DNA from: Tubulanus polymorphus
Lineage: Eukaryota > Nemertea > Palaeonemertea > Tubulaniformes > Tubulanidae
DNA length: 64,000 nt
Assembly: GCF_964204645.1 (NCBI RefSeq)
Contig: NC_134026.1
Location: 23,454,650 to 23,518,649, forward strand
Direction of reading: 5' to 3'
The position numbers and the translations under genes are program-made. Positions 9,001-59,200 of this stretch are shown piece after piece. Below the pieces are notes generated by a model, which did no database searches, had not been told where the DNA came from, and saw nothing but the letters and a program-made list of their open reading frames with translations. The number at the start of each line of letters is the position of its first letter. Positions within the stretch are counted from its first letter, which is position 1.

Positions 9001-12000
9001 TCATCTGAATTTTTTCTATTGTGGAGTTTTTCAATAACATGTTCCAGGAGTATATGTACATGCATATGTTTCGAGTTTTCCGTATATGTGCAGGCAAACA
9101 GGTGTTCTCTTTATAACAACCAGTTCTAATAGCTGAGGCAAAAACTGTGTCACTTGTGCATAGGAGGTGGAATTGACACCCTACACCATCTCTGAACAGG
9201 AAGCACATAATCTACCACCTATGGGTGTAAACAAACAAAAACCATTAGTGCAAAAAGCTAGATGGAATAGTTTACAATTCAAACGACGAAATGTAATCCT
9301 CACAATCTAGTTATTTAATATATTTGATAATGACAATATATGTAGTCTGTATAAGCACGGGGCAATATGAAGCTAATTGTCAACTCAGTGAACTAATGAT
9401 ATGAATGACGTCAATCATGACGATTGGTGCTGCTTTTCCTTGAACCTATCACGGCGTTCAGTGGTCTCAGTTAGTGTGAATTTCTTGAGAGAATTTTCAG
9501 GAAGCTATCCGTGGCCTCATAAGTTGTCAAGGCAGTTAGTGCTAAATTAAGCAATCAATTCGTAGTCAAAAACTGTACTGGGTAATCAAGCAATGGGAAG
9601 ATGTGAAATTCCCTGGAAGACACCGTTTCCAGTGTAACAATAATCTCCTCACGAGCATTCGAACAGCCAGTATCATCGCACTATCAGGGAAAATTATTTC
9701 CGCTATTGAATAAGTCCCATGTACGCATTTTCAAACAAAGCTTTTAGAAGTATCTCCTACTGTTGAGGGCAAACTACCCACAGATATCAGTTACATATCT
9801 AAGCATAAGTTCTAAAGAGGTCGATCAGCATTTCTATGTCACTTCTTAAGGTCGCTGTGGATCATCTAAAGGCTGGCTTATGTCGACAAGCAAAGCGACC
9901 CCTACTGACTCCTACCGACGCATCTGAGATCGCAGCCCAGCTTATGTCGACTGTGCTCCGATTCGCAGCTACTGAGGCCAACTAGCGGGATACGAGGTCC
10001 TCCCAGTTGCTTCCCTGCTAATGTCGGTTACGATTACTGGCAACTGCAACGGCTCAGATGGTCATGTGATAAGCATTTTGAGAATAAATTTGAATTATTT
10101 TGAATTATTGGGAAATATATTTGTATTAGAAAAGCTATTTCTTTAAAGATCTTTATCTTTCTGATTCTATTTTGAATACAATGTGCTAGAGACATCATAT
10201 AAAGATGGCCGCTCACGCCATAATTCTACCAATTTCGTTTCTAGATCTTCAGTCCAGTCATCTGCCGTGCTGAAGGTTTGGTTTACGTTTTGAACTACTT
10301 GAATCTGAAAGTTTATGACTAATTACGAATGACGCTAACTAGCGGTCATAATTCATACTATGTATATGCGGTTTCTTATAGGCTGAAACCCCTGCGCTAA
10401 GATCCGTCGCGTCGCAGCTTATGGCGGTTGCGATCGGAAGCAACTGTCCGCCTACTGTAGGCCGGAGTTGAACATGGGCAACTAGCCGGATATGGCTTGC
10501 GACGAGTCGGTAGGCGTCGGGTTACCGTCACAAGCTGGCTTATGTCGCAGCAACTGGTGGCCTCTTGTAGGCCGCTAGTTGCCGCTAATCGGCGACAAAC
10601 CCAGTTGCGTTGGTAGGCATCGCGTTGCTTGTCGACATAAGCCAGTCTTAAGATATATCTTGCATATTCAGGCTTTATCGGCAGTCTTCATCAATTCTCT
10701 TTTCACATTACCGTTACTCGCCTCTTGTCCCTTTCATTCGCTGATGGAATAAGGCTCAAGAGATGAGGCTTTTTACATATTGAGATAAGATTCTGTTTAT
10801 TTCATACAAAGCATTATCGCCTGTGTTGTCGAAATCACAGAGGAATCGAGGAGTTGACATTGAATTTTAAGAAATGCTAATCAAACGTGTACTACTCTGT
10901 AAGCTTCACTGTGAAGATTGCAATTGCCATTCAGATCATTGACACTTTTTGAAAGCTAAAATAGACAATGAATGAATGCACCTCTTTTACATGTACCGTA
11001 AATGGCTAAATAGAGTAGAATAATTTAAGCGTTGATAAGCGCAATCATTCTCAAATTGAATCCTAGATATCGCCACATAATTCTTTGTGTTTTTTTCAAG
11101 GTATGTCATGATAAACGACTAATCTTTTGTACAAACTGTGCTACAAGATTTCATGGAAGCTACCATCACACCATTATTCATCCATGCAAAAACATTACTG
11201 TGTATTGAAACGAAATCATGAATTGACAATCAGCATCGAGTGATGACAACGTGAAAGTACTGCACAAAGCAGAGGGGCACAGACCCACTGAACCATAAGA
11301 AAATGAAAGAGCGCAAACAGCACTTCCCCAATCAGCACTGTAAGAGCGAAATAATCCAACCATCCATCGACCTGGTGATTAAAGACGAAGAAAACTTGAT
11401 AATGGTTTCCTTCATCATCATCAAAGTGTACGGATAGATGAGAGCTAAATACTACCTGTTGGCCGACCCTCTAACAGCTAATGGCCAACATCGTTCCAAC
11501 TATCGACGCTGAATTTATGGGCATGTTTTTTACCACATTACTAAACGATTCATACATCAGATAACAGCCGATATATTTGAGAAGACAACGGGATGGATGG
11601 ACACAGATATATTAATTGGTAATAAAAAAGATTCTATGGTTATATTGCTCAATACAATTGAACAGCAGGTTTTCAATATCATCAATCAATAATTCTTTAA
11701 ATTTTTCCATCAATAACATTTTCAGCATCCACAATAATATTTTCAACATTAAATCAATTGATAGGCATAGAATGCTAAAAATATAGCGGTCAATTTTTAG
11801 AAATGTTTGTCAATATTTCTGGATCAAGTGCCTTAAGAAGCAATGACATTTACTGGTAATAACATAAATAGAAGGCCATTGTTAATAATTAGTTTTTTAC
11901 AGATTCTCCATGATTTCAGCCCAAACATGTGTAATTGCCTGAATAACAAGAGCTGAAGAACCGACAGCTCGAGGAAAGAGGAGCACAAAGACAAACAGGT

Positions 12001-31533: not shown

Positions 31534-34500
31534 ATGGCACTTAATAAAAGCAACACAGGAACTTTGGCTCGAAAACCAGCAGTGGCGCCTCCAACTCCCA
31601 ATGTAGCTCCTTCTTGCATAGATTTTGGCCCACCAAGGAAAGTTACTCTTCATCGACAAGCTGGTAGTATAAATAATGGCTTAGGATTTAGTATTGAAGG
31701 TGTGTTTTTATACCGATTCATCCAAATTTCCGAGTTCAACAAATTTCTAGTACTGTCACTGATAACAGGAAGACTTCCATTGAGAACGATGATTGATTTA
31801 TTGCATGCGTTATTTAGTGATAAATTTTGATTCTGTTTTAGTGATTAAAGGCGAAAGCGAAAAGGACAGCGGAGTGTTTGTAAAGAAGATAAGTGCCACG
31901 AGCCCAGCCGCTAAAGGCGGACAGTTACGGGCTGGAGATAAGATCCTTGAGGTAGGGGCGTATGTTACTACGAAAAATTCATCCCTTCTTAAGGGCCTAA
32001 TGGTTTTTAAGGAAACTTTGATATTCATCAATTTGAGGTTAAGGATGGTTCGATGACTAAGCTACATTTAAATGACTGATCATTACATTTGCAGGTTAAT
32101 GGTCAGGAGCTGTCAGGTGTTTCACAAGGAAGTGCAGCTAATATATTATGGGTGGCTCAAAATCCTGTTATTCTCTTGGTGCAAGGCCCTAAAATGGATA
32201 CGAAACCACCGCCGAAGGTTCCGCCAAAACCAAAAATGCCTAAATCGAACACAACACAAACTTTACCGAGAGCACGTGATACAAAGAAGGAATACCATGG
32301 CTCAACCAAAAGCATCGATCGTAAGTTGATCAGAAAAGATAAGTCATCACCGGTCACAGAGCCAACACCACCGCCACCTCCATCGGTTACAGCGGACGAG
32401 CCACCGATGGTTCCCGTACCGGAGCCGATGCCCGTACTGTCGATGAAGAATAACGATCGCAGCATTCAGAGAATGGACTCGAATGAACGCGTGAACTCGC
32501 CGAATCCAGAAATCATCGACCGAATCGTGCAGGAATTCAACGAACGAATCGTAGTTCAACAACAACAAAAACTTGCTGCTCCACAACCAATGCCACCTGC
32601 TCCTGAATTCAACGACGCTGATGATTCTGGAAAATTAGTCATTAACAATGAACTGTTGCCCCCATCAGAACCTATAAATCTGCCTCATCTGACAGAATTT
32701 TATGATAATGTTCGCGGGCCTTTAAGAACAGTTCAACTGGATCGTGAAGCTGGGAAGGGTCTTGGTGTCAGTATCGTTGGTAAGTACTTGATCTCAATAG
32801 TGATCTACCTGTTTTATGAAACAACAATAGTTTTAGAGTTTTTGAAATAAATCTTGCATTATTTTGGACTGGGCAAAGTCAAAGCTAAGCTAATGGCCTT
32901 GTTGGTTTATATTTGAATAACCTAGGACTATGAAAGCGATGATATTCGTGGTTTACTTTACATTAAATTGGTTTTATTATCATTGAATTATCCTCTCTGT
33001 CGTTACTGATGTCATAAACAGGCTTCAAAATCCGGCTAATTATGACAGTCAGTTGATTATCGAGCAGGCTGTTTGTAGTTACACATATTGATCATTGAAT
33101 TGATTATCAATCAACTCTCCATAATTACATTTTCAGTGGCAGTATAGTCTCGCTACTCACGCTGGGAGACTATGATTATGTCCGCAGTGAAGATTTATAA
33201 TTTCAACTAGATTAATTAACCAACAGTGGAGAATTATTTCAAAATTCGATTTTGACTGATGAATGTAGTAGCTCTCTTTTCTACACTGACAATGTCCCTA
33301 CTTTTAAAATAGAAATATTTTTGCAGGAACATATCAAATACATCAGTTAGTTCATAAAATGACATGATCATTAACAATACAAATTCCCCTCAGGGATGAT
33401 TATGTTCTAATAATTGTCACAGGAATATATCTACTTGTCATTCTGAATGAAATTTTTCCCAATTATCAATGCTTGCTTGTACGTTGTTGGTTAAATGGAA
33501 AAACCGTTAAACTAGAGGATCACTTTCTTCTATTTCTAAATCAAATGAATAAGTAATATGAAATGATCATTTATCTATGTTTGATGATGAGGTTTTCAAG
33601 GTTTTACTGAATATATTTTATGCCCACTCGGGACATCAGTCAAGCCAACTATTCGTGCGTTTACTTTTCGCCCATCGTTCATTTGTTCATCTATCTGTAG
33701 ACTATTTATATTTATGTTGGTACCCATGCATATTTTATAACCACAACCAATTGCAAATCAGTAGTTCATGACATGCTCTCTATGATTGTGTTGAGTTTTA
33801 AGGTCATTTATAAGTCCACCACGGGGGCGTTGAATAGCGGAATAATGTGGTAATTCCATCTAATTTTGTAACCTCAATCAATCACTAAGTTGTAGCTCAT
33901 GACATGTTCTTTGTAGGCCTATTTGTTCACCAGGGGTGTTGAATACTGAAATTTTCAGATCGTCAAGCATTTCACCACGTGGGCATGGTGTCCATGGGCC
34001 CCTAGTTTTCTATTGAGATGGGTAATTTTGAAGATTTTTGTGCATGGGATGACGTTATTTTGTTATAGTTGATAAGATAAATGGTACTCAGGAAAAAGGA
34101 GTTATTATCAAAAATGTAGTAGCTGATAGTCCTGCTGGTCGTAGCGGAGTTGTAATGCCTGGCGATTGTATCATTCAGGTAGTTCTTCGTTGTCATTTTC
34201 TTGATGTATTTTGTGCCTGAGGCTCTTGTGGTTTGTTTCGATATAACCAATCACCTATCGGTAACCGTAGGCCGCAGTACATGTCTGTATTTCAAACATA
34301 TTTTTCACAAACTCCTGTCTGTTTCCTATTCCTATTGGCTTATGATACATCATTCTCAGAGAGCGTTGTGGTATGGATTCATCTGTAGTTGTGAGGATGT
34401 GTCAAATTGTTGCTAGCTATCTTGTCTATGATGACTGTCACTACTGACAAATAACATATTCTACTAACAATTATATTAACCTTTAATGTATAACGCTTCG

Positions 34501-37500
34501 TAAATCTACTACTAACCTTTGTCTATTACAATACTGCCACACTCTAATGGAGATTTCTATATTTCATGACTAACTAGGTGAACGATCGAGACTTGACCGG
34601 AGTTACTCAACCCGAGGTCGCCGACTTGTTGCGCACTGTTGCCACACCCGTCACGCTTATAATTCAAATCGGTACCCAGTCGGAGCCAGATAGCAATTAT
34701 GACCAATCATACGGCTCAGACGACGAAGAAGAATGGACACCGCCATCAGTGATACAAATTGAACGAGGCTCCGCTAAAGGCCTCGGGATCAGTGTAGTTC
34801 GTATGTGTTCATTTTTGAACAGAGTTTTTATCTATGTTGTCTTTTTTTTTAACGAATTACACAGAATATTTGTGGCCATAAATCATTTCGATGAAAAAAT
34901 GTCGTACGAAAGGTTATTTTTCTGATTTACTTTAGATAATGGTTTTGTGACGTATTCATTTGAAACATTTCCGATTGAAAATCATCAGAGGACTTAATTG
35001 CCAGTCGCTTCTGTTCAGGGAAAAGGGTTGTGTTGTTGAAATGTAGACTTTGCACAAGTTCTGTATCGTCTTCATAAAATATAACTGTCGAGTGCTTTCA
35101 AGAATGAACACTTGTTGAATTTCTGCTTCATAAAAGTGCTCCAGTCTACTCGAAATTATGAAATTATTGATAGAAAGTCTCGAGAAATTGTACAATGGTG
35201 AAAATGTATGGACACTAGCCTCACTGTGTTATTTGTCAAATTGATATATAGTAGCGTAATGAAGTTTAGAAATGTGGATGCATGGAAGCAGTGAGGCGAA
35301 AATTGTACCCAAGAGATTTCCATCATGTTCAGCGCACTGAATGAGTCTGCAAGTGTTGCTAGTAATACTAATTACTGCTTGTCTCAAGTAGAATGTATAA
35401 TCACACATTAACTACCAACAATCCCACCATTAATTCTCAACATTCAATTCATATCTATTCGTGGTTACGTTTCGTGTGAATCAATGAATTTGATTTATAA
35501 GATTTCTTCTCTTTTCTCATTTTTGCTGTCAGTAATGGTATTATTCATAACAACATTCTTCAAGCACTCATACTTCCAGATACAAACTAACTATTAACTG
35601 TTACAGGTGGGAGTGGAAAACGAGGAATGATTATTAAACAAGTTATTGCTGACAGTCCGTCTGCTAAATGTGGCTCTTTGCAGCCAGGAGATCGAATTCT
35701 GAAGGTAAATAAGGCAAAATTGTAGTTTAGTACCAATATCATAGAGCCATAAGTCAAGGGGTTATGACTAGACTTATAAGCAATATACTGTTATTAACTC
35801 CTGGTAACTAAAAAACTCCCAACCTAACTGAATCATTACTCGCTATCGGTTGTAATTAACAGAATAATCAACATGCATTACTTTGATATTAGTTTATTGA
35901 CACATCCTTCTACATGAGAATTTGCTGTCATGAAATGCTTTTTGCTCAGGTGAATGGAATAAGTTTAGAGGCTGCCAATGAACTTGAAGCCGTTGAAGCG
36001 CTTCGTAAGGCGAGCAATCCTGTTCATTTAGTCGTACAACACCCTCTGGTGGGTACGCCGTACATCGAAAACGGGCATCAGGGATTGATCGACGAGGAAC
36101 GCTCATTGACTGGGTCACATTCCCCGGCTTCCAGTGGACATCTGTACCCCAGCCCTGGAGTTTTAACTCCGAGTACGCAACCAGCAAGTCTAGCTGCTAC
36201 GCCTACGCCATCACTATCAACACCTGTAATCCTTGAACCTCCTCCTCTTCCACAAACATTCCATATTTATCGAGAGCCCGGAACTGGATTGGGTATCAGT
36301 ATCGCTAGTAAGTCACAGATGTTGTCTGTGTTTTTCAACGTCGTTGTAGTTTATTTCTGTGATCTGTATTTTTCATTTTTTCGTGTATTTCATTTACAGT
36401 GTCTTCATGTATTATGTTTACCACTTATATGACGCCCTGAATTATCTATGGTAACTGTTTAGTTACATGATTTCAGTTTGTTAGGTACCCCTGTACCTGT
36501 GTTTTAGAGTCTATTTAGACGAGTTTGTGTTGCAATATGCTTCATGTACCATATGTGAATTTGAACCATGTGTAATCATTGTTTGTAGTGAAAACTAGCG
36601 GAAGGATGAATCGTTATGATAAAACCAAATTCCCACTTAGTAGATTGGTTGAGCTTATATAGGCAACATGATTCATATTGTAGGGCCCATGGTTTTGATA
36701 CTTTTTTTCTGTTAATGGTTTTTAGATGATCGTTTTCCTATCAGCAGATTATCCACATTTGAACAAATACATTTATTATATAGCAATGATATGCATTTAT
36801 GTAATGAAAATATGTTGTTCTGAATGATTGGCGAAAATTATGTATATTTGATGCGTGTTTTTCAGCTGCACCTCCCGGACAGAAGGGTATGGTTATAAAG
36901 CAGATAGCTAATGAAAGTCCTGCAGATCATGATGGAAGATTGAAACCTGGCTATCGAATATTAGAAGTAAGCGGGTTTGTGATTAATATGATGAGTTTTT
37001 CATGATTTACCCCAATAGGATAATGAGAAGGAAAAATGATGTGATACACATATGTTGTAGGTGAATAACACAAGTGTAGAACATTTAACGCAGTGTGAAG
37101 CTGTTGAAATCCTACGTACTGCTAAAAATCCTGTCACTTTAGTCGTTGATACATCAGATATAACTCTAGCTAATGACGGCCCAGCCAGCTGGGATTCACC
37201 AAGAGAAGTTCAGATCATTCGTGAACCTGGAAAGGGTATAGGCGTTAGCATTATTGGTAAATAGAGTTCATGTCATGCCAGTATTCACAGACAGATATGA
37301 GCAAAGTCTGCTCTTTTGATGACTTCATGATATTTCACTATCTTTCCAGGGGTTAAAGATCAAGACGTCATTATTAAACAAGTGATTGAAGGAAGTCCAG
37401 CTGGTAAAACTGGATTGTTAAACGCCGGTGATAAAATATTGCAGGTAATTATTAGTTTCAAAGTATTTGGTTGGTGTATATGTTCACCAGGTGGCATTGA

Positions 37501-39588
37501 ATATTGAAATTGTCAGATGATGAAGAATTTCAGACCATTGCCCAAGTGGGTGTGGTGTCCCCTGGACCATGGTTTATGCTGTTAATCTAATCTCACTGTG
37601 GTTTTCTTCTTAAAGGTGAATGGTTACGATTTGTGTGGAGTTCCTCAATACGTAGCCGTTGAAGTTCTTAGAAACGCTACAAATCCTGTTACATTGCTCG
37701 TGCAGAAGACGCAAGACAGGGTATGTTTCAATAGATGTCACTTTCAAATTGAATCATGTAAATCCATTTCCAAATCCTACAAAACCGTAGCAAATCTGAA
37801 GCGTCTCTGCATAGCACAGCTGGTTTAAATACCGGTGTATGGTTTTTGTTGTAGGATCCTACGTATTTACATACAGAGTATACCGACACACCAGCGAATA
37901 ATAACTGGAATTTTACGAACTCTTGTGATACACTGAACGACGATAATCTTCCGATCAGAGAAACAAGTATTCTTGATTCGGTGCTCTCTCTGGATATATA
38001 CGGAAGTGAGATTTCACACAGCGATCACATGGAATCCCGCAATCAGTTATCCGATTCGTGGCACAGTGCCAATAATGAGAATCTCCATATAAGGACTCCA
38101 TTGATTGAGAGTCGACCAATGTCGGATTATTCGGGCTATAGAGTTTATTTGAAACTAGAGAATACACAACCTGCTGGTTCATTCAAGCTAAGAGGCATTG
38201 GCAATCTATGCAAAAAGGTATGATATTAATTTGATTGGATATATATCTGTTTGAATTAATTAAGTCTTAAACTGTTGTTGTTACTTAATAGGCTAAGGAA
38301 GCCGGTTGCAGCCATATTGTTAGTTCGTCTGGTGGAAATGCAGGAATTGCTGCTGCCTATTCAGCCAAAAGGTTGGGTTTGCCTTGTACAGTTTATGTGC
38401 CCTCTTCAACCCCCGAGTTTATTAAATATAAATTACGAAGTGAGGTAAGTATCAAGAATGAACCGTGCGATTCCTGAAATTAAATTAAGAACTGGCTGAT
38501 TCAAAAATATTTCGGACATATATGACTATGAATTATTGTTTGTTTAACTCATAGGGTGCAGAAGTGATAGTACATGGTGATGTTTGGGATGAAGCTAATA
38601 TTAAAGCTATGGAGATAGCTAGTTTACCTGGTAAATAACAATGCATAAAACATTTAGTAAGCATATTTCACGCAAAAATTCATTTGTTTTTTGCCATGCT
38701 TATTTCAGGATATGGTCTTATTCATCCATTTGATCATCCTCACATTTGGTAAGTTAATCATTGATTCTCATCACTCGAAGGTCCTCACAATTATGTTTTT
38801 ATTCATAGTTTTCTCTGATTTATGACTGATATCTCTTGTAGGGATGGTCATGCCTCAATGATTCACGAAGTAGCCGAACAGATGGATCATATTCCGGATG
38901 TTGTCATAGTTTCAGTTGGAGGGGGTGGTCTAATGTGTGGAGTTATTCAGGGTATGTGGAATGTTGGATGGAATAAAGTACCAGTAATTGCCATGGAAAC
39001 TAAAGGTGCTAATTGTTTGAATGCGGCATTGGAGATGGGTGAACCTGTAAATATACCAGGAATTAGGAGGTAGGAATCATTCAACAATCTCATTTTTTAT
39101 CCAAGTCTTATTCCAATAAAATAGTGTTGAATTATGCATACTGCCTTTTATTTGCAGTATCGCGAAGAGTCTTGGAGCAGTAAAAGTAGGGAAAAGAGCA
39201 TTTGAAATATGCCACCAACATCCTGTATTATCTCAGATTGTAACTGATACTCAAGCTGTAGATTCATGTTGTCGATTTGCTGGTAAGTTTTTGACTGGGT
39301 CTCTTTGAATTAACCGTAGCTAAGCTTAGAACAATTTAGCATCCATTTTAGTACTTTTCAGCACTACAGTTGTAAATACTTTTGGTGATTTTATTTACAG
39401 ATGATCATCGAATGCTGGTTGAACCGGCTTGTGGGGCGACTTTGGCTGCCATTTATCACAATACTATTCCTCGTCTGCAACAAGAAAATAAAATTGGCCA
39501 CGTACGGTCAGTTGTAGTCATCGTGTGTGGTGGAAACATTATGACACTCGGGTGGCTTGAAAAACTGCGGAAAGATTTTGGTATATGA
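31534..39588 (+). CDS. five-PDZ protein fused to a serine dehydratase (1139 aa)
   Basis: Coding exons: 31534-31699, 31842-31951, 32095-32779, 34069-34178, 34578-34800, 35607-35704, 35950-36307, 36866-36966, 37061-37256, 37350-37444, 37616-37720, 37855-38217, 38292-38444, 38555-38630, 38709-38748, 38842-39069, 39158-39282, 39401-39588. They sum to 3420 nt with every phase matching. PDZ domains lie near residues 32-123, 300-390, 412-497, 565-648 and 662-747, each with a GLGF-type loop (GLGFSI, GLGVSI, GLGISV, GLGISI, GIGVSI). The 93-320 exon holds a proline-rich linker (PPPKVPPKPKMPK). Residues 826-1139 are a serine dehydratase domain. The PDZ part resembles multi-PDZ scaffolds such as MPDZ/PATJ; the enzyme could act where the PDZ ligands are. 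The join is phase 0 (QDR to DPTYL). Two separate genes remain possible. Confidence 0.85.
38083..39588 (+). CDS. serine dehydratase domain of the fusion gene
   Basis: Sub-feature of the gene above (residues 826-1139, 314 aa; human SDS is 328). PLP fold type II enzyme that deaminates L-serine, and often threonine, to pyruvate or 2-oxobutyrate. It shows the Schiff-base lysine in PAGSFKLRG (Lys860), the substrate loop SSGGNAG, the phosphate loop VGGGGL (985-990), VEPACGA, and VCGGN with the cysteine (1120) that contacts the PLP ring nitrogen in SDS. The loop has glycine where serine racemase has its catalytic Ser84, arguing against racemase activity. Glycine also occurs here in the human paralogue SDSL. 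Exon 37855-38217 carries both linker and domain start, so an SDS-only product would need the weak-context ATG at 38029. Confidence 0.9.
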
Positions 39589-41466
39589 ATTCAACAAGAT
39601 TTTTGAAACTGCTTGTCTATTTTCCGGAAATGCTGATTAAACTGCATTGTATAAGCCTTCCTTGTGGGACAAAGCTGTGTTGATTGTTTTGTTACTACTA
39701 CAAGACAATCAACTAATAAGTAATGCTTTAAGGGTCTAAATACCTTATTTTTTGTGTTCCTGGTCATTTTAATCAATTTGCTTGTCATTCATTGAAATTG
39801 ATGAGAAATACATACTAATTACTGGTAACTGCTAGATGGGGTTGACAATGACTATATTTCATGAACTTGAATCCCATTCCTTTAATAGACCTACCTCATC
39901 AATACTTGTCAGCTCTTAAAATGTAGGTATACTTACCTCAGGCAGCTGACACTGCCTATATGAGCAACATGAATATACATCTGCTAAAGTTTTAATTTTT
40001 GTCAGTTAATACTCATAACCTTTTCATCAATTGTAAAAATTAATCTAGAATTTAGACTTGTAGATTCCAAATTATAGGATGCTATAAAGAAAGTGTCAAA
40101 AAACCAAAGTTTTTACTTTGCTTCAGTGATTTATTTGACTATTTACATATCACATGTTTACACAGGGTCAAATATTAATGTGGAATATTTGTTTTATTGT
40201 GAGGCTAAATGCAAGTGCTTAGGCAAGAATAGGCAAGTGTGACTAGATCAAAGAATGCCGATTAGTAAGATAAGGCTGTCATTTTTGTCATAATATCATT
40301 TCTTTACTAGATTGTATTGTAAAAAAAAGTTTATATGCATCAATATTAGGCTCAGTGATAATATAGGTTCATCTACTGAGCAATTTAACTATATGTGATA
40401 TCTATCATGATATATGATTGTTCGTTTTTCAATGATCTCTTCTTAAGCTTCAGTCCATCTTTTTGGATTATTATGTATCTCGATAATGTTTGATATATTG
40501 CTTCTATAACTGCTGTACATCATGGCAATCTCTGTTTTCAACTGGTTTCTTCAGTTACATACTGAAATTGTGCCGTAATACATGTATAACTCTGTTCAAA
40601 CTATATACAAGTTAATGAGATCTATGAAACTTGTAACTAAAGAAGTCAGTTTAGAAATCTTATATTTAAGTATGATGAATGCATTTACTGTTTGTTCAAA
40701 GAAATATGTTGTAAATACTTAAAGTACATAAATTGTTCAGTCATTTGAAGTACTGGTAATATGAAAGCGATTTCATCTGTTCACCTGCTTGTACGTACAT
40801 GTATATGGTTCTGCTCACATGGGGAAATCGTCTTGAAATGTGGTTGAATGAGAGCAAATCTATTCTAGAATTCATTACGACACCGATACCTTGCTCAATG
40901 TCACACAACGCATTTTACTGTTTGATAAGAAAGATCTTCACAACTTTGCTATAAACACTGCAACCACCTTTTTGAGAGAGGCAACAGGAGGGTTTTTCTT
41001 TTTAGTTTTGAATACACAGGTCCACTCATGAATTTTGCGACTGCTTGCCCTTGTTGCTCAGAGATGCATTTTAAGAATTGCCAAAGATTTATTAATATAT
41101 TAACAATAACATATCAATTTACATGTGTGAACCTGGCAAATTTATGATGATTGAAATTTTTCTTACCATATATAGAGCCATATCTAAATCTGTTGCAATA
41201 CTTACTCATCAGTGTCATAGAATCGATTTTTGCTTAAAATTAATGTATATTTGATTCAGTAATTTGTAATTGTATTTCCATCTCAGTGCAATGACCAATT
41301 ACCTCAACATCACTTTGGCATTACTGAAGTCAGTGATCATGCCCTGAACCGATTAGATTTTGAAACAATCAATGTATCGAAATATCAGTTAGATTGTTTT
41401 TGTTTGACTTGATGTTTGATCGGTAAATGACCTGACCTTATCATGAAAGAATGAACGGAAGAATTG

Positions 41467-41472
41467 AATAAA
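41467..41472 (+). terminator. candidate poly(A) signal, PDZ-dehydratase gene
   Basis: An AATAAA hexamer 1.9 kb downstream of the stop codon on the coding strand. The actual cleavage site is not visible. Confidence 0.35.
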
Positions 41473-43431
41473 CCAAAATTACTTCGCAAAAATCCACTAT
41501 TACACAGTAAGCAAAATTGACACGAGTGCTGGCTCGCATTTACTCACACAATCTTAGATGTATTAGAGTTGTAAACCTTTTGAAGGAAGTATGTGCATGC
41601 AATTTTAGTGAAATGTGTATTACATTAAAATAGAGAGATGTTATTGCTTTTATTAGTAGCATTAACGAAATAAGTAGTAGAAAACTATTTCCAATTCCTT
41701 GAATTAGGTATGGACTGTATTTAGGGTGAGAGTGTGAATGAATTGTGTACAAAATATGTATGTATATACATGTACATTCTAAGTTAGACCTGTTGATATG
41801 TCGTGTATACGCTAACTCGTGCGATGTTGCTTTTTTGACACAGTCTGTTGATGTGTACTTTGTTCTCTATTTGCCTCTGCTTTTTCGATATGCATGTAAA
41901 TGTGTAGATTATTTGTATATATTAATCTATGTATTAGTTACGCTTTCACCTCGGGTAACTTGTGGAAGAAGTGCATGGATTATTCTATGTAGTGATTGAA
42001 CTGTGTTAGAAATGGCTTGCGATGATTGAGTCACTTCACTTTTGGAATGGACCTTTTAGCAAATTTAAAATTCACGATGAAATTTGAATATAAAGTTATG
42101 GAACTGAAGGTTACTATATATTCGTATGTCATTTAACTATCATTGAACTGCTCACACAATTTAAATTTTTAGTTGTCTAAGAAAAAAACATTTTTGTAAA
42201 TGTACATGTATATAGTATTAAATATGAATGCCTTACCATGTATTGTATAGTACATGTATGATCATTATTGATAATGTGTAAAGTTTATTAACATTATTGT
42301 CGAATGTTGTGCTATCTCTGATAATTTCGTCCATGTTATATTGTCACACACATATCTCTTTATCTCTCTACTTTTTGCACACTTTCCTCATACATACAGT
42401 ACTCGATTATATTTTAACATTCCAGTGTTTGTTTCATTTGTTGATAATTGATAAGATAAAAACTGCCACGTATGCGCGTCACCTCAAGTGTTTGGTGGTA
42501 ATTTGAAGCGAATAGAATTTTTCTTTTTCCAAGTAATCTAGTCACGAGTCTGATTATATCTATCTGATTGTGAGATTGAATCTCTTTTAAATCTTCTGAA
42601 AAAAAAATAGTCGAGATCATCAACTTTAAAGCATTGAAGTTGATTATGTTTTGTATATCTATATAAGTGTACTGTATGAAAAACAGGCCCCTGTAGGACT
42701 CCGACCTGCTGCATGCAAGCAGTAACATACATCGAAAGATTTTTTTAAATAATTGACAACATCCTTTGAATAACTCTAATTTTATGAATTTGACATTACC
42801 TATATGATTGATAAACGATAAACTAAAGTATTTTGAAGCCAAATTTCCTAAAAGCTGATAATTAATTATGTTGTGCTCAATTTCTGTTTATGACTATCAT
42901 TTGATAAATGGGGTTGAAAATATTAAGGCAAAAGCTGAAACTGTAGTGGCGCTGGTATTTTGGCTTAGATGTGTGTTGCCTGTGGGTAGAATATCTTTCG
43001 TTTGTGTTCAAAGGTCTTCATTCCAAAAGAAAACGTCCAGTACTACTGTACTGTAAATAGCTAAGTAAATTTGGTCGACAGCACAGCAGCAGAAATACGA
43101 CTTAAATACAAGCATGTACCTTAATAAGCATACCTTAATTAGTCCCTGGAACAACTGCCCATTATTGACAGGATAAATAATTGCAATCCTATCTCACCTG
43201 GTGTTTTGCTTCTTAAAGTTTTAATTTCTACGCAGAACATTGGGATATACGCAATTTGATAGTTGGCTGGCTCCCCTTTGAGTATTTTTATGTTCCACCC
43301 AGACAGGCTTCTTATTTTTAGTTTGGTATATGGTTGAATACAACATTTTATCAGTAGTTCAGAGTTTAGGTTGAAGAGGGAACATGTATTGTTGTTGTTA
43401 TTTGTTGTTGTCATATATTAGTTTGTCATTC

Positions 43432-43437
43432 AATAAA
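43432..43437 (+). terminator. second candidate poly(A) signal, PDZ-dehydratase gene
   Basis: An AATAAA hexamer 3.8 kb downstream of the stop codon, preceded by a T/G-rich stretch. It would mark a long 3' UTR isoform if used. Confidence 0.25.
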
Positions 43438-43552
43438 ATGATATTGCTTCAAGAATACACTTCTGCTGTTTTATCATCCTTTCGTATATTTGTGGTCTAT
43501 GCAAGACACGGTGTAGGCCTAATCTCGTTACGACGAACATAGTCTATCATTG

Positions 43553-43604
43553 CCTAGTGATAGTCGTATCATTGATACTAAAATTTTCTACGACTATCAC
43601 TAGG
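43553..43604. repeat. hairpin with a perfect 16 bp stem
   Basis: CCTAGTGATAGTCGTA at 43553-43568 is the exact reverse complement of the segment at 43589-43604, leaving a 20-base loop. Confidence 0.85.
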
Positions 43605-43714
43605 TCCGGTAACTGACGTCATTCTCGATACACTGGATGATATTTTTGGTCACTCTTCCCATGCAGTACGGTCAGATGGAGATCTGACAGTCCGGGCTGA
43701 TCTCGTACAGTAAC

Positions 43715-45180: not shown

Positions 45181-48100
45181 ATGACGCCTGGATACGTGCA
45201 TAAAGAGAGTGAAGACAGTATGGAAGGAGCCGAAATTTCGCATTCCTCAAGCGCAAACGAGTGTACTCCACTCATTCCCAAGACGAAAGAGAGGAGTCAA
45301 TCTACTGATAGGTATATATATAATGAATATCTTCCATCTGACGAATAATTCGCAAAATGCAGCCAATCAAATAAAACTTACAAAATAAAATTTTCTGCTA
45401 TGAACTTTTTTATTGGGTTTGACAGATTTCTTTTTCTAAAAGACTTGTATAAACCGTTACAAAATTACAAGGATGCCTTTGCGGACGCTTGTTTTACGTT
45501 TAAATGAAAATGGATATGTAAATGTATTGAAGATTCATTATATATATTTAATGCCGTTTGTGGATTCCCATCACTAATCTCAAAGGAGCCTCATGCAAGC
45601 CAGCCTCAGAAAACTGTACCCGTAGGTGAGAGTAAAGAAATACAACAACGTATCATGAAGACCTACATACGATTTAATTAATGTGAATTTCTATAATTCC
45701 TCACGCGTTATACATTGCAAATGCATTCCTCATTTTCAGTTATATGATTGCGAAATATATACATTATGAAAATGATTTTTCGGTACTTTTCGATAGTGTG
45801 AGATTCAAAAAAAAACATTTCATATCATGTTTTTTCTTCAAATAAGCCCTAAAAATTAACATTTACCATTGTCCGACGATTGATACGTTTTAAACACCGT
45901 TCCATCAAAAAGGTTTTGATAGTACGACAAATTTTATGAATTCATTTGATGATAATAATAATGATTCTATTAAAAAATCGTTATGTGCAAAAATTATCAT
46001 TATTCGGACTCAATTCCACCTAAATAGACATAACTTATTCATTTCCGATGAAAGAACTGGTCAAAAAGTCTTGAGGATCTTAAGCATATATCGCAAAACA
46101 TTAAATTCATAAAAGAAATTTGACCGAACACGAACAACTGCAATTTTGTGGCGCTTCCGGTAGATACCCGTAACCCCGGAGCCGGTTTCGCAAAAATGCG
46201 GATTAGTTTACGACTGGGAGGTAAGAGAGGTCCCTGCCACCGATTTCCCTCTCATTAACTTTTTAACTAATTAGAATTGTTTCCTATGAAATTTCCTAAC
46301 CAAGCCGAACCCCAGTGTCAAATATGCAAAAAAATAGTATACGCCGCGTCTATAGACCGTTAAATCGTGAATCCTATGGATATCCCAGTTTTATGCCATA
46401 CAATATAATACGTATTCCAGAAACAAAAAAAATGATATCATCGTTAATCCATACAATTTTCGATTCAAAAGCGCCAGAGTCAAATTAGCAACGTATTCCA
46501 AGTGTCCAGTATAAACGTCACTGCGGCATTTCCATGATAAACACGTCTTTTAATAAATGAGAAACTATAATTGTCGTCGCCAACTAAAACAAAATCTCTA
46601 TTCCAGTGACGATCCATTTCAATGATTCGTTTGAACAAAAGTATTCTACTGAAATTCTCACAGAGTCTTGTACTGAATGATTGAGTTTGCGAAATGATTT
46701 GATTTAACTGATAATAAAGCGAAACAATATGGCGGACTGCACATGCCTGTCACTCGTGCAAGATCATGAGTGAATTAAAAAATGCCATAAGTGACTTGAA
46801 AGTTAACTTGATGATTAAGCTTATGAGAAGTTATGAGATTACATAGGCCTAACTTTATCCAGGCTAACCCACATTTGCAACAGACACACCTAGAGAGTTG
46901 TGTCCTGAATCAGATGTGCCATTTAATTCATCATTTTTTTGGTGAAAATATAGAAATTCCTTTGATAGCCGTTACAAGAAAAATGAAATTGTACGCTACA
47001 CTTTATAGTGCTCTAATAGCGATTTTGAATTCCAAATTCTTATTGGTCAAATGGTTAATAGCAATTTTGAGATATGCAAACAGTGGAATCCTTTCATTTC
47101 AAGCTATTAAAAGATAGATATGTCAGCCTTATCATAACTTGGGCTTATCATTTCACATACATAAGACTTATTTCACCTGACTGCTGTCCAAATGTCAATT
47201 CAAATTTCGATTTCAGAATGTTTAACTTATGTTCTCTCCTGAGATGATGGGTGTATTTCCATCGAAAGGGCAGACTGTTCATCGATGAAAGTAACGTACT
47301 TATGATTTTTTGTTATCATTTTCAGATACAATTTGGTATTCATTACGTTCGTCATACAAGGCATAGGATTGACGCTTCCATGGAATCTATTCATGACAGC
47401 TAAAGAGGTAATTGGGAATCGCGAATTCACAATTTTCAAATGAAAATGTGATATATGCGGTAGCTGATTCGGGCCATACTCTGTACGGCTAGACCTACGA
47501 TGAAATAATTTTTACATGGACAATTTTTTTGTTTTCTAGAGCGAATGTTTTTTTTTTTATCGCGCGTCTAGCAGTACAGAAATTGTTCTTAGAATAGCCC
47601 GAATCAGCCACCACGGTTGAAGGATCAAACTTATATATGAACCGGAATCATTTTCGATTTCAGTATTATGTGGGATATAAGTTGGCACCGGCTGGTAACG
47701 CCGGTTATCGTCTGAATTTCCTTAGTTACGCCGGTATTGCTGCAATGGGTTCAAATGCATTGTTAAGCGGAGTGAACCTATTTACGCATTGCGGAAAGTA
47801 AGTCGCTTATAAAGTCTTTCATATTATCCCTCTTCAATTAATGTTAATCATTTTATCATAATATACCACCAGTATATATCAATTATGATTTTGCGATTGT
47901 TTTACTTTCAGTGGCCGACCAACAGTCCGCACAATTGTCAGTCAAATAGCTATGGTTTTAGCTTTTGCTTTCACAATTATTTTGGCAGTCATGGATACTT
48001 CGGAATGTACGTTCCTAGAAATGAATGAATAACCTTTTAAAATGTTCAGATAGTTTGAATATTATCATAAAGAATACAGATAAACACCCTTGGATGACAT

Positions 48101-50306
48101 GGGAGTGATGACAACTATAATAATACGTATAACAATGGGAAAGAAATTGTCATCTTTCAGTTTTTGATTATTTGTGAAGGCGTATTGAATAATTATCATA
48201 TCCCAATCATCCACATTTCAAAGAGTAATGATAATGTTATCCAACTTTCATTTCAGCGCCGGAATTATTTTTCTTCATAACGATGTTCACAATAGTATTT
48301 GTCAACAGTGAGTATTCGCAAGATTAGATTGGTTTTCCTTTTTAAGAATTATACGACTAATTTGTAATATCATGCTATGATTTATATATTTTCAGTGTGT
48401 ACTGGACTGTGGGCAAACTGCATGTTTGGAATAGCGTCTCATTTCAGTAAAAACTACGTAAACGCTGTCGTCATCGGAAGCGTGAGTAAACATCGATGCT
48501 TTAAAGATATTTTGAATTTTAACGTAGAGTAACAAAGAGTACTTTCCACGATTCAACCTCATTCATTATAGCGTTGATGATGTCATTATCATATTGTTGC
48601 AATTTTTCAAATTTTCAGAATCTAAGTGGTTTGATGACTGCTATCTTAGTCATATTGTCAAAATCAGGTTCGTTTTGTAAACATAGAAAGCCATAGATTT
48701 CTAAAACCATTTTTGCACTTTTTCTTTTTTATTTCAAATTAATAGAAACAATAATAGGTTAAAATATGCGATGGATGCTTAATCAATGTTTCTCAAAGTT
48801 GGAGGATTGTTAATTCGAAAGATTAAGAGATTAATTTACCCATGTCCTCCAGACAAGATGGTCAAGTGGTCATATATATGTATGACCAGAGCCATATGAA
48901 GGTATCGAGCTCTTATAGATCTGATGAACGGATAGGGTCCACTACTTCGGATATCCTGCATAACTAACGAATGTTAATTGATTATTTTCAGGCACAGCGG
49001 ATCCAGTCATTTCGGCAATTCTGTATTTTGTATCGGCTGTCGTTATCGTCTTTTTGTGTTTGATCTCATTCATTCTGTTGAGAAAATCGGTAATTTTGAA
49101 CTTTCATTCTTAAATGTATCAGACGTATTGGATCATCATAATAGAACTTCAAATGACAATTGTTTTGAATCAACGTATCTTTGTTTGTGATTCCAGGAAT
49201 TTTACAGAAGTCATTACTCTGATAAATTGGTGATGAATGAGGATGAATCCAAAGCTGAAATGGTTCTTCCTTATTGGAAAGTTTTCAAACTGGTAAGACC
49301 ACCCAAGGAGACGATGTATTTCCTCGTGTTTTTTTCACAGAATCTAACGAAGTTGGCAATAAACATTTCTTTACAGATTTGGCCACAACTTTTCGATGTT
49401 TGGTTTCAAAGATTCATCGCTGGGGCTATTGTACCGGCGCTCCTGGCTGACATTGAAAAAGTCGATTCTAATTTCTTAATTCCTGGTCAGTAATTCATAA
49501 TTTTGAACAGCTATCGATTTAGACTTTACATTATTCCATTTAACAAGACAAATATCGTATTATATTTTCAGATTACTACTACACGGATATTATGTGTTAC
49601 CTGTTTGTTAATTTCTGTATTTGCTTTGGTAACTTTTTCGTCTTCTTTATTCATAAGGTAAGCTTGTAGATAATAACATCACAAAATCTAAGCGTTTTTA
49701 TACCTTTCAATTCAAATTTTATTTAAGAGTGGGTTTTTCAGATTCACAAATCCAAATTTACATTCTGTTTACCCGGTATTCAGATTTAGAATGTTTCTTT
49801 TTATTTCAGCCTAAGTCATTGTATGTCATATATTTCCAAATGGTGCGAATTTTGTTCATCCCATACTTCATGTTGTGCAACTACCGACCAGAAACGAGAA
49901 GCAGCAACTTGCCAGTTTTGTTGAAAAATGATTGGGCTTTCTTAGCGGGTGTCATCGTATTCGGAACGACGAATGGCCACTTCTCTGGTCTAACAATGAT
50001 GTATTCAAAACAGTAAGTTTTTAGAAGTGATTATTTTAATATTGGCCCAGCCATGGATTCTAAAACACTTAAGAGTCCATGGCCCAACCTAACACTACTT
50101 TCTCTTATCGCTGTATTCATCTTTACGCTGAGCAAGTCTTTTAACTATACCTAATTTGTTGTTTATCTCTTATTCACAGAGCTGGAGGAACCGACCCGGC
50201 AGCAAAGCTATTGGCCGGTATGTACACAGGATTTGTGCAAAATTTCGGACGTTGTTTTGGACTAGGGATGAATATTGTGATCGCGTATTTTGTTGAATAT
50301 GTCTAA
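45181..50306 (+). CDS. equilibrative nucleoside transporter, tandem copy A (448 aa)
   Basis: SLC29/ENT family carrier moving nucleosides down their gradient across a membrane. Coding exons: 45181-45311, 47326-47407, 47664-47797, 47912-48006, 48257-48307, 48396-48481, 48619-48667, 48992-49089, 49197-49292, 49377-49485, 49572-49657, 49810-50012, 50180-50306; total 1347 nt, all phases fit. TM1 contains LPWNLFMTA, the family signature. Later hallmarks are HFSKNYVNAVVIGSNLSG, RFIAGAIVPALL, MVRILFIPYFMLCNYRP and TTNGHFSGLTMMYSK, with about 11 hydrophobic segments and a C-terminal one ending VEYV. The N-terminal tail has ECTPLI, a possible acidic-dileucine endolysosomal sorting motif like that of ENT3. 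Copy B downstream has the same exon plan. Intron 1 is 2 kb. Substrate range cannot be read from the sequence. Confidence 0.95.
50042..50089. repeat. foldback repeat in transporter A intron 12
   Basis: TTGGCCCAGCCATGGATTCT pairs with AGAGTCCATGGCCCAA further right with small mismatches, giving a short hairpin that is absent from the matching intron of copy B. Confidence 0.65.
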
Positions 50307-52306: not shown

Positions 52307-55300
52307 ATGACACGCGGGCGTTCAGGCACGAAAACCATGATTGTCGATGATATGGGAGATGGAATAGACTCTGTGTCGTATTCTTCAAGAACAGATGAGA
52401 CGACTCCACTTATACAGTTGTCGGGAGTGAAACTTCAAGAACCTACCGATAGGTATTTATTTAAATGATATGATATGTCGCCTAATAATGACAAGCACAA
52501 AACCTAGAAGTGTATTTGTTTATTATAGGGTCTCTTAATGATCAAACGTTGAATCATTCTACTCTCAAACAATTTGGGGTCACGATTTTCCATTTTATAT
52601 GCAATGTATTTACATCATGGAATCTTCTCAATTAGAAGTTGTACCACTTACGTTTTGGTCAGATGCAAAAAGTAGTAAAAAGATCTATTTTTCAAATCCG
52701 TTTTGAAGTCTTTGTGAAGTATTCCACGATGTTTTACTTTGGGAAATTGGATCTGGATATTGAAGTCATACCTTTTTACTTTGAGTTCCCATGAACAAAT
52801 GCTGCTATTACATTAGAGAAAGTGGTGATTTATCATAATAACCCGTCACAGAAGAAAAACCATGAAGTGATCACGATTTGAAAAGTCTACAACTTGATAA
52901 CTTGAAAATTGATAACTTTTTATTCTATTTGTAGATACAACTTGGTTTTCATTACGTTCATCATACAAGGGGTGGGACTGACGCTACCATGGAACCTATT
53001 CATGACAGCTAAAGATGTAAGCATTCTCATAACATCGAAAAATAAAATCTATTGCTCAGTGGGGAGGAGACGATAAGATTTTTTTTAAAATATAGATATA
53101 CAATCCGATGGAATATGAGCCAAAATACGATTGAACCAACAAGAATTTTAGATATCTGTCTTCATGACTGAATTGATATTTTTATTTCAGTATTATGTGG
53201 GTTATAAGTTGGCACCGGCTGGTAGCGCCAGTTATCGTCTGAATTTTCTTAGTTATGCTGGTATCGCTGCGATGGGTTCAAATGCCTTGCTCAACGGTGT
53301 AAATCTCTTTACGCATTGCGGAAAGTAAGACTCTTAATTATCAATTAATTATCAATGTTGCATGGTGCTGGGCTTTAGCTTACTGATGCGCGATTTTTTC
53401 GAACTTTCAGTGGCCGACCTACTGTCCGGACCATTGTAAGTCAATTAGGAATGATTATAGCCTTCGTTTTTACGATAGTCATGGCTGTATTTGATACATC
53501 TACATGTAAGTTTCATGGAGGCATCTTTTCTTTAAGAATGCCATGTCGCAATTACAGTTTCCATCGTTTTTCCTTTTTCTAAAAAAAAAATTCAATTTCA
53601 TCACCCATTATCGCATGATATCATTTTTTCAGATCCACAAGTATTTTTCTTTATTACGTTGTTTACAATAATATTCGTCAACAGTGAGTATCTCCATGAC
53701 GTCATTTATTGACCTATATTAATAGAGAAATAATCAAATATCTCAAAATTTCAGTTCCTGTTAGTTTCATCACGATACAATTTACATGATATAATCTTGG
53801 AATTATCTGAATCCGGACATTAGATTGCTTTTCCTTTTTTAGAATTATAGGACTAATTTGTAACATCATGCTATGATTTATATATTTTCAGTGTGTACTG
53901 GACTGTGGGCAAACTGTATGTTTGGAATAGCGTCTCATTTCAGTAAAAACTACGTAAATGCTGTCGTCATCGGAAGCGTAAGGATGATAGTCTAATGTTA
54001 GACTGATCAATTAGAAATGACTTCTTAGATATGAGTGTAAAAGTAACTATACTGTGGGAATGGTCTATTTTCAGAATTTAAGTGGATTGCTCACTGCTTT
54101 ATTTGTTATATTGTCGAAAGAAGGTTCGTATTTACGCAATAATATTGTCTGAATATAAAATGCGGTTGAAATTACTATTCACATGGCTTCGCTCCAATGG
54201 CCTAAACGTAGATGATATTACTTCAAAAAGTTATCGTTTCAATTAAAAAGTAATATCATCTACGTTTTGGAGCGAAGCCATGTGATCATTTTTACCCCCT
54301 GTACAAGTAGGCACACTTAAATGTAATCCTAATCCATATACCCTCTGTGTTTTTCCAGGATCAGCGGATCCAGTTATATCAGCGATCTTGTATTTTGTAT
54401 CTGCTGTGGTTATCGTTTTTATGTGTTTAATCTCATTCATTATGCTGAACAAATCGGTAATTCAACTTTCTTAAATCCTCAGATTTTCATAAACCCTACT
54501 TTTGTATAGGAATCTTTTAAAAAAAGCAACTACAACGTCGATATTGAGATGATATCCGTAATCATCTCAGCGAATGATATATTTTCAGGAATTTTATAAG
54601 AACTATTATTCCGATAAATTGATCCAAGCTGAAGATGAGTCAACGGCCGAAATGGTGCTACCATATTGGAAAGTATTCAAAATGGTGAGCAGTGTCTTGA
54701 ATGTGAGTTTCTGAATCAACGTTCGATAATAATTTTGAAATGTTGCACTATTATACAGATCTGGCCGCAATTATTTGACGTTTGGTTCCAAAGATTCGTT
54801 GCTGGAGCCGTCATTCCTGCAATGCTCGCAGATGTTGTTAAAAGCGATCCCAATTTTCTGATACCTGGTCGGTATTTCATTGACGAGTGATTAAACTAAA
54901 ATGTATCTTTTTTCACATAAGTACTATGATCTATTTTAGAATACCACTACACGGATATCATGTGTTATTTATTCACTAACTTTTGTATTTGTTTCGGAAA
55001 CTTATTCGTGTTTTTCGTTCACAAGGTAAATACAGCTGATGACATACGATTTGATATAAGTTGCTACCCAAGACGTAAGAATTACAAGAATGGAATTGTC
55101 TTGTCTTTACGCTTGTTTTGTTGTATTTCTAGCCGAGATCAGAGTATGTGGTATATTTCCAAATGGTACGAATGTTATTTGTACCATTCTTTGTATTGTG
55201 CAACTATAGACCTGAAACCAGAAGCAAAAACCTTCCAGTTTTGTTGAAAAGTGATTGGGCTTTTTTGGCGGGTGTCATTGTATTTGCCACGACGAATGGT

Positions 55301-56262: not shown

Positions 56263-59200
56263 TCAATAGAACATGGCTCTTTGAAATTCCTCCATCGACC
56301 CGACTACCGGCATGTTACATGCTGTTTCTCTTGATCGCTGACGAGATGTCGAATTGTTTCCTATAGTAGTTACTGACATCCGTAAGGCTGGCGTTGGTTG
56401 TCTTTGATACAATTCTGAGGAGTAATTCAACGAATTATTCGCATCATTTTGGTCTAATTGTAGATTCGATGCGCTACAACTAGAGTTCGATTTTTGTTTG
56501 ATCACTTTTTTGTATTTATACCAATAAAACTCGAATGCAAGGGCTATCAGAGCCAGCCCAATACCCATGAATATCACTAAGAAGACACCGCCAATATTTT
56601 GGATACTTATTCCATCGCTTTCATCTTCGACTGTTGGACACTCGGGCACTTTTTGAAAGTGTTTATCGATATATTCTTTGCTCCAAGCTGCCGTTTTAAG
56701 ATCCTCCAATACTCTTTGATTTAAAAGCTGTAATATTCTGCAAAATCGAATGGAAAATGAACATGAGAATAAGTATCTGGAACGAATTTGAAACTACAAT
56801 TCATGGTATCTGGTAACGTTATTCAAGTCTTTGGCCCATGAAATTAGATTCAACCGCACATATTTCTTACAATTGGAGTTTTTTTTACCGAAAAAGGAAT
56901 GGATTATCAGAAATATTTATCAAACGTATAATTTAAACAGAGTTAAGATCATATGCTCACTGTTGTGATAGATCATTTCGTAGCGCGATGTTGCCTTCTT
57001 GAACGGCAATAGCGTAAGGTTTCCGGCTGAATGATTCTCCTACTGCCCACAAACCACAGTCAATCATCGTCGCATATTTATTGGATGTTTCATCGCCTGC
57101 GAAATGGATATTTCATTTAAAAAAAACATTACTGGCGCTACGTGATTTAATCAACGTTCTCAAAAGATCGCTAGAAGTTGGCGTGCCAGAAATGATATTT
57201 GCATCTATTACAATCACACCGATAGCATCGAATTGAAATTTGCAAAGAGCATCAGAAAACTATCATTTTCCTAACCTATAAAAGCAAAACTTCCGTTTTT
57301 CACACGTCGTATAGCTTCTTCTTGATTTTTGGGAAATTTTGACAATTCCATTGCCGTCCACATGTTAGTGAATTTGTCACTGACCGGGTAATCCCAAACA
57401 GCAAGTTTAGCTCGTTCCTGGTCTGACATGCTATCGTTTAGACTCATTTCTTTCCAGATTCTATAAAATTGAAGAAATAAATATACATACACATGAACAT
57501 GTATGTCCCAAAAATACATCAGTAGGCATGTATGATACATACCCATAGAACTTCGCTTCAATATCGGCCATTCTTTTGAAGTAAACCTGGGCAGAAGTGC
57601 TTTCCTGTGGGGCATATTTCGTTTGGAACTGTTTTGCTAGATCATCCAGTGATTCTATAGGCGTTTCTAAACGTTGTACGGTCAGAAATGCCGCTAGATT
57701 AGCTGTGTACGTGGCTATCATGATAAACCCGAATAACCACCAGGTTGCAGCGATAAGTCGCCCGGATATAGCTCTCGGTACTTCACCTCCACCTAAATGA
57801 TAATGATGACGATAATGCCATATGGGATATCTAGCATGTTTAGTTGAGCATGGCAAAATAAAGAAAAAAACGTCTTGATGGATTAGGAACCATTATCGAC
57901 ATAACGAAACCCTATGCATTTGCACACGCCTATTTCTGTACCCCCTGTCTATTTCTTTTAATCTAATTACCTTGCGGAGTCAGGGAAGTCATACAAAACC
58001 ATAGACCTTCTTTGAGACTAAAAACGCGAGGTTCATCACCGTCGCCGTCCCATTTATCACGATTGTTCTGGTAACTGTACGGACTATATTTATCGAAGAC
58101 GAACAGCAATAGACTGACGAAGAAAAATGCTGATAAAACGCATAACCAGACATCGTTTTCGAGCACTGTCATAAATTTGAAAAGTCTGTACTCGAACGTC
58201 GGTTTTTGCATCAGTATAGTGATTCCAACCAGGTCGTAATATGGGATTGTAAAGTCTATAACGCTCTCTCGTTCAGCAGTCAGTGACAATGGAGCTGCTA
58301 CTATATCTGCTTTCTGTTAATAATTCAAAAAATAAAAACTTCTCTTCAGAGCACATTTCACTTAACAGTATATGTACAAATACATAATCATAGCACGAGA
58401 AATGAGGTACGCCACTAATGAATTCAGATAGCTGCAGCTGACGCCAGTCATATAATGTATATAGTTTGTTATGATTTTGATTACTTACATCGTCGAGTAA
58501 TTCTTTGATCAGCCCAGTCCAAGATCCATTGTCGAGTTGACGTCCGTATGCGCCATCACTGACTTCGTACAGATCGTATTCAAAGTCCATCATTTGTGAA
58601 AGCTTTTCAATAAGATCTTTACAGTATCCTCTATACTCTTTTCGACCATCCGCTTGACTCTTAATGTACATGAAAGGCGGTTCCTATAAATGAAGAGGGA
58701 AATTACGATACCAACGAGGATGTTAATTTGGAACTTGGCATATATATCATATATATCTAACATTTTCTCAAGGGTCAAATCGGGCCAAACGGAGGCACAC
58801 CCAGTAGTTTGTGGTCTATAATTTCATCTCGGTGACCGACCCTTCACGACTTGTTGACCCCTCCCAATTATTCACACAGCTTACATGAATAGTTGCTACT
58901 CGATATCGTTTGGTTATGTTCGTATGAATTAGAGATGGACCTGGCGTTCTCAATTCCAATCCTCGCGTGTAATTCCATCTGCCGAGCTGAAAATTCAAAA
59001 TATTTTGAACTTTACGATGAGGTCAAAACCATGTTGTGCATGGTAAGCCATGGACAACGAACAGCTGTCACTAAAAGGGAAATTAATAATTGTTAATGTA
59101 TATATACCTGATGAATTTGTCTGGTTTTATCGATGATCAGTCGATCTATCGATAAGTTGATGGTTTCGAAGTTCTCTTTTGGTGAAAACACAAATTCACC

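Follow-up and report, generated by a model that had tools for sequence, protein, structure and literature searches.

A probable in-frame fusion of five PDZ domains with a serine dehydratase-type enzyme in the nemertean Tubulanus polymorphus

Background

The scaffold proteins MPDZ/PATJ, DLG and INAD share with the gene described here an array of multiple PDZ domains with G-phi-G-phi loops but, to our knowledge, have no SDS domain. Among them, INAD is laid out as five PDZ domains with a long gap after PDZ1. SDS enzymes are homodimers, the active site of SDS/SDSL relies on the PLP lysine, Asn67 and the GGGG loop, and both enzymes are otherwise known as free proteins. The vertebrate representatives have ~320-330 residues, as judged from PDB chain lengths, whereas the Tubulanus enzyme is preceded by five PDZ domains in frame.

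PMC6424897 describes what Phe40 and Cys303 do in human SDS, and how Ser84 acts as the re-face base of serine racemase. Serine racemase itself has been linked to PDZ proteins: according to PMC4000995, it binds GRIP1 and PICK1 via PDZ interactions, in the case of GRIP1 through its own C-terminal region, and its C-terminus resembles a type II PDZ ligand. This system is similar to the present one in that a related PLP enzyme is involved and a PDZ scaffold cooperates with a serine enzyme (PMC4000995). The PDZ partners of the racemase are separate proteins, however, which sets this system apart from an in-line fusion.

Gene model

In the window, i.e., the whole 64,000-nucleotide stretch of Tubulanus polymorphus contig NC_134026.1 that was analysed, positions 31534-39588 of the + strand contain 18 exons that join into a single frame of 1139 residues. 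For exon chaining, GT donors and AG acceptors were tried up to 4 bases from the boundaries proposed in an earlier note, and two stop-free 18-exon chains were left, of 1139 and 1140 residues, the sole difference being the donor at 34178 vs 34181. The earlier claims of 18 exons joined in phase and of a phase-0 junction at 37720/37855 were thus reproduced by the exon chain, and the claim that exon 12 (37855-38217) has no stop was borne out by the frame listing. One weak point of the model is the acceptor of exon 5, in the PDZ part, which received the lowest score (-7.6 bits). The coordinate of Met808 given earlier needed a minor correction, its start being 38029. The features are listed below; except for PDZ3, the borders of the PDZ domains inside exons are our own reading.

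31534..31699, + strand: exon 1, with Met1 and the start of PDZ1; Met1 is the first in-frame Met downstream of a stop (ORF from 31528)
31842..31951, + strand: exon 2, PDZ1 (exon chain, Pfam)
32095..32779, + strand: exon 3, end of PDZ1 and start of PDZ2, separated by a long proline-rich linker (exon chain)
34069..34178, + strand: exon 4, PDZ2; alternative donor 34181 (exon chain)
34578..34800, + strand: exon 5, end of PDZ2 and start of PDZ3; weak acceptor (exon chain, splice scoring)
35607..35704, + strand: exon 6, PDZ3 (exon chain); best Pfam PDZ stretch, residues 416-494
35950..36307, + strand: exon 7, end of PDZ3, linker and start of PDZ4 (exon chain)
36866..36966, + strand: exon 8, PDZ4 (exon chain)
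37061..37256, + strand: exon 9, end of PDZ4 and start of PDZ5 (exon chain)
37350..37444, + strand: exon 10, PDZ5 (exon chain)
37616..37720, + strand: exon 11, end of PDZ5; phase-0 donor (exon chain, splice scoring)
37721..37854, + strand: joining intron, 134 bp, with the strongest acceptor of the gene (splice scoring)
37855..38028, + strand: linker (5' part of exon 12), residues 750-807, 58 open codons without ATG in any frame
38029..38031, + strand: Met808, the sole in-frame ATG of exon 12 upstream of the enzyme homology; candidate start of a separate 332-residue SDS; C at -3
38032..38217, + strand: remainder of exon 12, enzyme start; codon of Lys860 (SDS Lys41) at 38185-38187
38292..38444, + strand: exon 13, SSSGGNAG motif (Gly884, Asn886)
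38555..38630, + strand: exon 14, enzyme (exon chain)
38709..38748, + strand: exon 15, enzyme (exon chain)
38842..39069, + strand: exon 16, glycine loop GGGG (986-989)
39158..39282, + strand: exon 17, enzyme (exon chain)
39401..39588, + strand: exon 18, Cys1120 (SDS Cys303), C-terminus DFGI and stop
39636..39641, + strand: ATTAAA, the first of the hexamers tried past the stop codon and a candidate poly(A) signal for the joined gene

The PDZ array and the enzyme

Five PDZ stretches were recognised in the 1139-residue protein by Pfam (PF00595, E 5.6e-75), which agrees with the count in the earlier note. The carboxylate-binding loops of PDZ1-5 read GLGF, GLGV, GLGI, GLGI and GIGV, as in multi-PDZ scaffolds. 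The best PDB matches were InaD-like protein (6ird) and DLG4 (2xkx) for PDZ4-5, and DLG4 and MPDZ entries for the whole array. With INAD, the array has in common the number of PDZ domains (five) and the long gap after PDZ1. We do not claim INAD orthology of the array: the INAD entry 1ihj was absent from the best 60 of 289, 272 and 235 hits in three PDB searches with PDZ parts, and PDZ1 of Drosophila INAD, used as a query against the genome, preferred other places (C4:1070762 at 1.5e-8, vs 0.012 for the PDZ3 exon and 0.08 for the PDZ1 exon of the window, the exons being searched apart). No literature on INAD in molluscs or annelids was found.

In the enzyme part, Pfam identified one PALP domain at residues 827-1121, which covers profile positions 5-295 of 295 and is therefore full length. 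In the PDB, the best four among the 60 listed of 144 matches were SDSL (2rkb) and SDS (1pwe, 4h27, 1p5j). Identical columns numbered 157 of 308 in the alignment with 2rkb, which we take to be human SDSL (the final five-residue alignment line was left out), and 152 of 316 in that with 1pwe, presumably rat SDS. At 17 positions compared in 1pwe numbering, Phe40, Lys41, Ser64, Gly66, Asn67, the glycines 168-171, Glu194, Ala198, Cys303, Gly304 and Gly305 are kept, while Ala65 is changed to Gly, Ser200 to Cys and Ala222 to Ser; Gly at the residue 65 position is also found in SDSL. The residues by which SDS membership was judged are present as Phe859, Lys860, Asn886, GGGG 986-989 and Cys1120. The full PALP profile and the equivalents of Phe40, Lys41, Asn67, the glycine loop and Cys303 are shared with vertebrate SDS/SDSL (1pwe, 1p5j, 4h27, 2rkb), and together with the 1pwe and 2rkb alignments they confirm the earlier description of a complete SDS-type PLP enzyme with intact cofactor residues. 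Its assignment as a predicted serine/threonine dehydratase of the SDS/SDSL kind is thus supported. The best NCBIfam model, NF006094 (serine/threonine dehydratase), scored 223.5 bits, below its cut-off of 331; since the NCBIfam library is designed for bacteria and archaea, this leaves room for an animal SDS. A pattern search for bacterial relatives of the enzyme matched 15 stretches, none of which encodes a relative.

The position of Ser84 of serine racemase, which we take to correspond to SDS residue 65, is occupied by Gly884 in the Tubulanus enzyme (via SDS Ala65), so that racemase activity or D-serine synthesis would be unexpected. The earlier note had drawn an analogy with serine racemase, of which the binding of the racemase to GRIP1 and PICK1 stands (PMC4000995), but the analogy is weak, as Gly884 replaces Ser84 and the racemase partners are separate molecules. 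Two other proposals of the same note, that the fusion is in frame and that the enzyme is an SDS, are backed by the sequence.

The junction between the two parts

The central question is whether the PDZ array and the enzyme belong to one gene or to two neighbouring ones. Splice sites were scored with a leave-one-out matrix over the 17 introns, with 993 AG and 938 GT dinucleotides as decoys. The acceptor of the joining intron reached 12.7 bits, the top value of the 17, and no decoy AG scored as high (0/993); its donor, at 6.2 bits, is the fourth weakest of 17, and 31 of the 938 decoy GTs scored as high. With 134 bp, the joining intron is of ordinary size compared with introns 8-17 (74-171 bp), and unspliced read-through would meet a stop at 37826. 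A scan for five poly(A) hexamers found no start in the interval 37374-38420 and several occurrences within the enzyme part. The other recognised genes in the window are kilobases distant from the locus, which would make a gene border of ~300 bases here unusual, although the number of genes seen is small. Rfam found nothing in the window.

Another important question is whether the linker is coding. Its 58 codons (residues 750-807) are in phase with PDZ5 and, on the + strand, are open in the enzyme frame only, with 0, 1 and 6 stops per frame. An open frame was retained in 527 of 20000 dinucleotide shuffles of the linker. For comparison, 58-codon windows were drawn from DNA assumed to be non-coding, namely the introns of the gene and two flanking regions, each on either strand; these windows overlap and are not independent. 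Of them, 899 of 39396 (2.3%) were open, and 54 (0.14%) were open with a coding score at least as high as that of the linker; the phase match with PDZ5 would, we infer, add a factor of ~3. ATG is missing from all frames of the linker, as it also was in 59 of 5000 shuffles; this counts against coding and could also be explained by a 5' UTR.

Codon scoring, performed by leaving out one exon at a time, gave the linker -0.047 bits per codon, slightly under zero and the best of its three frames. This value is above that of the second half of exon 12 (-0.128), which is coding by homology, near that of exon 17 (-0.033) and under those of most other exons. The score has little power in exon 12, since the coding second half falls under its own +1 frame (-0.094). 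A synonymous-codon test trained on 25 loci (7826 codons) gave means of -5.8 for known coding windows and -4.1 for non-coding ones, and +2.1 for the linker; as it fails to separate coding from non-coding DNA, it is uninformative on the linker. Residues 750-832 had no NCBIfam match.

As far as sequence can tell, we regard it as quite probable that a real fusion transcript is made from this locus and that the PDZ array and SDS form a single protein. Within this reading falls a possible, though doubtful, case in which both products are made, the fusion and a free SDS from an inner promoter and start, so that the linker would be UTR for one product and coding for the other. This would account for the open frame and the splice signals and, at the same time, for the missing ATG upstream of Met808. 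A promoter scan, however, found 3 sites vs 3.0 expected, and the consensus used is bacterial.

The main rival is a reading with two same-strand neighbours: the PDZ gene ends past PDZ5, SDS has a message of its own in which exon 12 supplies the 5' UTR and the beginning of the coding region, translation starts at Met808, and the open frame is due to chance. A start at Met808 would give an SDS of 332 residues, a usual length, with SDS homology beginning at its residue 14 to 17, and the 174 nt upstream fit a leader by their lack of ATG. We nevertheless consider this reading improbable: exon 12 opens at a very strong acceptor, which leads one to expect an upstream exon, and the donor of the PDZ5 exon is in the matching phase; none of the five poly(A) hexamers has a start within 37374-38420; an open linker frame would be expected in 2.3-2.6% of cases only; and the C at -3 of Met808 is a poor context for translation start.

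Less probable still is an SDS gene nested in the final PDZ-gene intron, with a short last exon of the PDZ gene downstream of 39588. PDZ5 does end shortly before exon 11 ends, and a small tail exon could easily be missed, but the two parts lie on the same strand, the introns up to the enzyme are small and ordinary, and the + strand of 39600-43700 contains no stop-free stretch of at least 35 residues above 9 bits, a limit that a short exon would escape. An assembly error joining two unrelated genes is scarcely credible, as the locus lies inside a 31.9 Mb contig, the joining intron contains neither N nor a tandem repeat, and nothing was found in favour of such an error.

Other copies in the genome

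Whole-protein and enzyme-only searches and a PALP family search found no second SDS-type gene in the genome, a miss that is not proof of absence. The next-best places for the enzyme were C9 (28%, E 3.8e-4 over query 153-318), a piece of which is PALP according to Pfam, and C2:1957 kb (45%, E 5.1e-4 over query 144-188), a piece of which was not matched by Pfam. The PALP family search of the genome gave 16 matches at six gene places, the window included. By their reading frames, four of the five other places look like threonine-dehydratase, racemase-like or cystathionine-synthase-like genes.

Two side observations were made in the same genome. It contains bantam (62.9 bits vs a cut-off of 61), and C6 carries Hox-type homeodomains in a row, among them presumably Lox2, Lox4 and Lox5; these genes suggest that the animal is probably a spiralian. 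A COX1 search gave no hit.

Discussion

A single gene would encode 1139 residues, in which a linker of ~58 to 75 residues connects five PDZ domains to an SDS/SDSL-type serine/threonine dehydratase, with the PDZ and enzyme parts presumably translated together. The enzyme would convert L-serine and L-threonine to pyruvate or 2-oxobutyrate and ammonia. Because SDS enzymes are homodimeric, it would pair two scaffolds and bring together ten PDZ domains. Ligands of the N-terminal PDZ array, e.g., the tails of membrane proteins, would anchor the enzyme; a placement at the synapse or the membrane is our guess. As for the origin of the fusion, a likely route would be that transcripts of a PDZ gene read through into an adjacent SDS gene and were spliced to the acceptor in front of its first coding exon, by which, we propose, a former 5' UTR was turned into the linker.

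The protein ends in DFGI, which matches the phi-x-phi pattern of class II PDZ ligands, a match that is frequent by chance. A more far-reaching scenario, which we put forward tentatively and consider unlikely as a whole, is that the fusion is the sole SDS-type gene and performs all SDS-type serine/threonine breakdown, that two five-PDZ scaffolds are dimerised, and that docking of DFGI on its own or a neighbouring PDZ domain controls assembly or activity.

Both halves belong to ordinary, known families. No description of a combination or fusion of PDZ with SDS/PALP was found in the literature, to which the search was confined. The statement in the earlier note that no protein with such an architecture has been described is therefore supported in part, and the combination may already be present, unnoticed, in databases. 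As far as the literature shows, the pairing of these two known families, PDZ and SDS, is new.

Should the fusion protein be produced, a metabolic enzyme would be permanently built into a signalling-type scaffold in a genome in which no other such enzyme was found. It would be a clear-cut example of two genes fusing, perhaps through read-through that made a former UTR the linker, and would allow testing whether serine breakdown at PDZ-organised sites matters.

C-terminal tail of the probable fusion and other features

Class II PDZ ligands follow the rule phi-x-phi, and the C-terminal residues of the probable PDZ-SDS fusion, DFGI, fit this pattern, which makes the tail a candidate ligand of this class as judged from sequence. 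The protein carrying this candidate ligand has five PDZ domains of its own. The features considered here are as follows (window coordinates unless a contig is named):

39574-39585, + strand: DFGI, end of the fusion, read from the spliced exon chain
47598-50303 and 53152-54887, + strand: similar exons present in two copies (Pfam and translated peptides)
56266-62060, - strand: ionotropic glutamate receptor exons (Pfam Lig_chan, glutamate-binding and ANF_receptor)
8089-10687: translated peptides alike at several places
C6:5318231-5634753, + strand: ten homeodomain matches

The two copies probably represent a tandem pair. A nucleoside transporter was matched in one of four stretches of the first copy, and peptides resembling those of the first copy were found in two of three stretches in or adjoining the second, where Pfam matched none of the three tried. 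The receptor exons, with the listed Pfam domains matched in 4/5 stretches tried, lie ~17 kb downstream of the fusion. The region of similar peptides has somewhat raised G+C, gave no Pfam match in the two stretches tried, and is perhaps a repeat element, the repeat search there having covered tandem repeats only.

In the searched T. polymorphus genome (G000), 10 of the 37 homeodomain matches fall within ~316 kb of contig C6, all on one strand, apparently forming an ordered Hox cluster.
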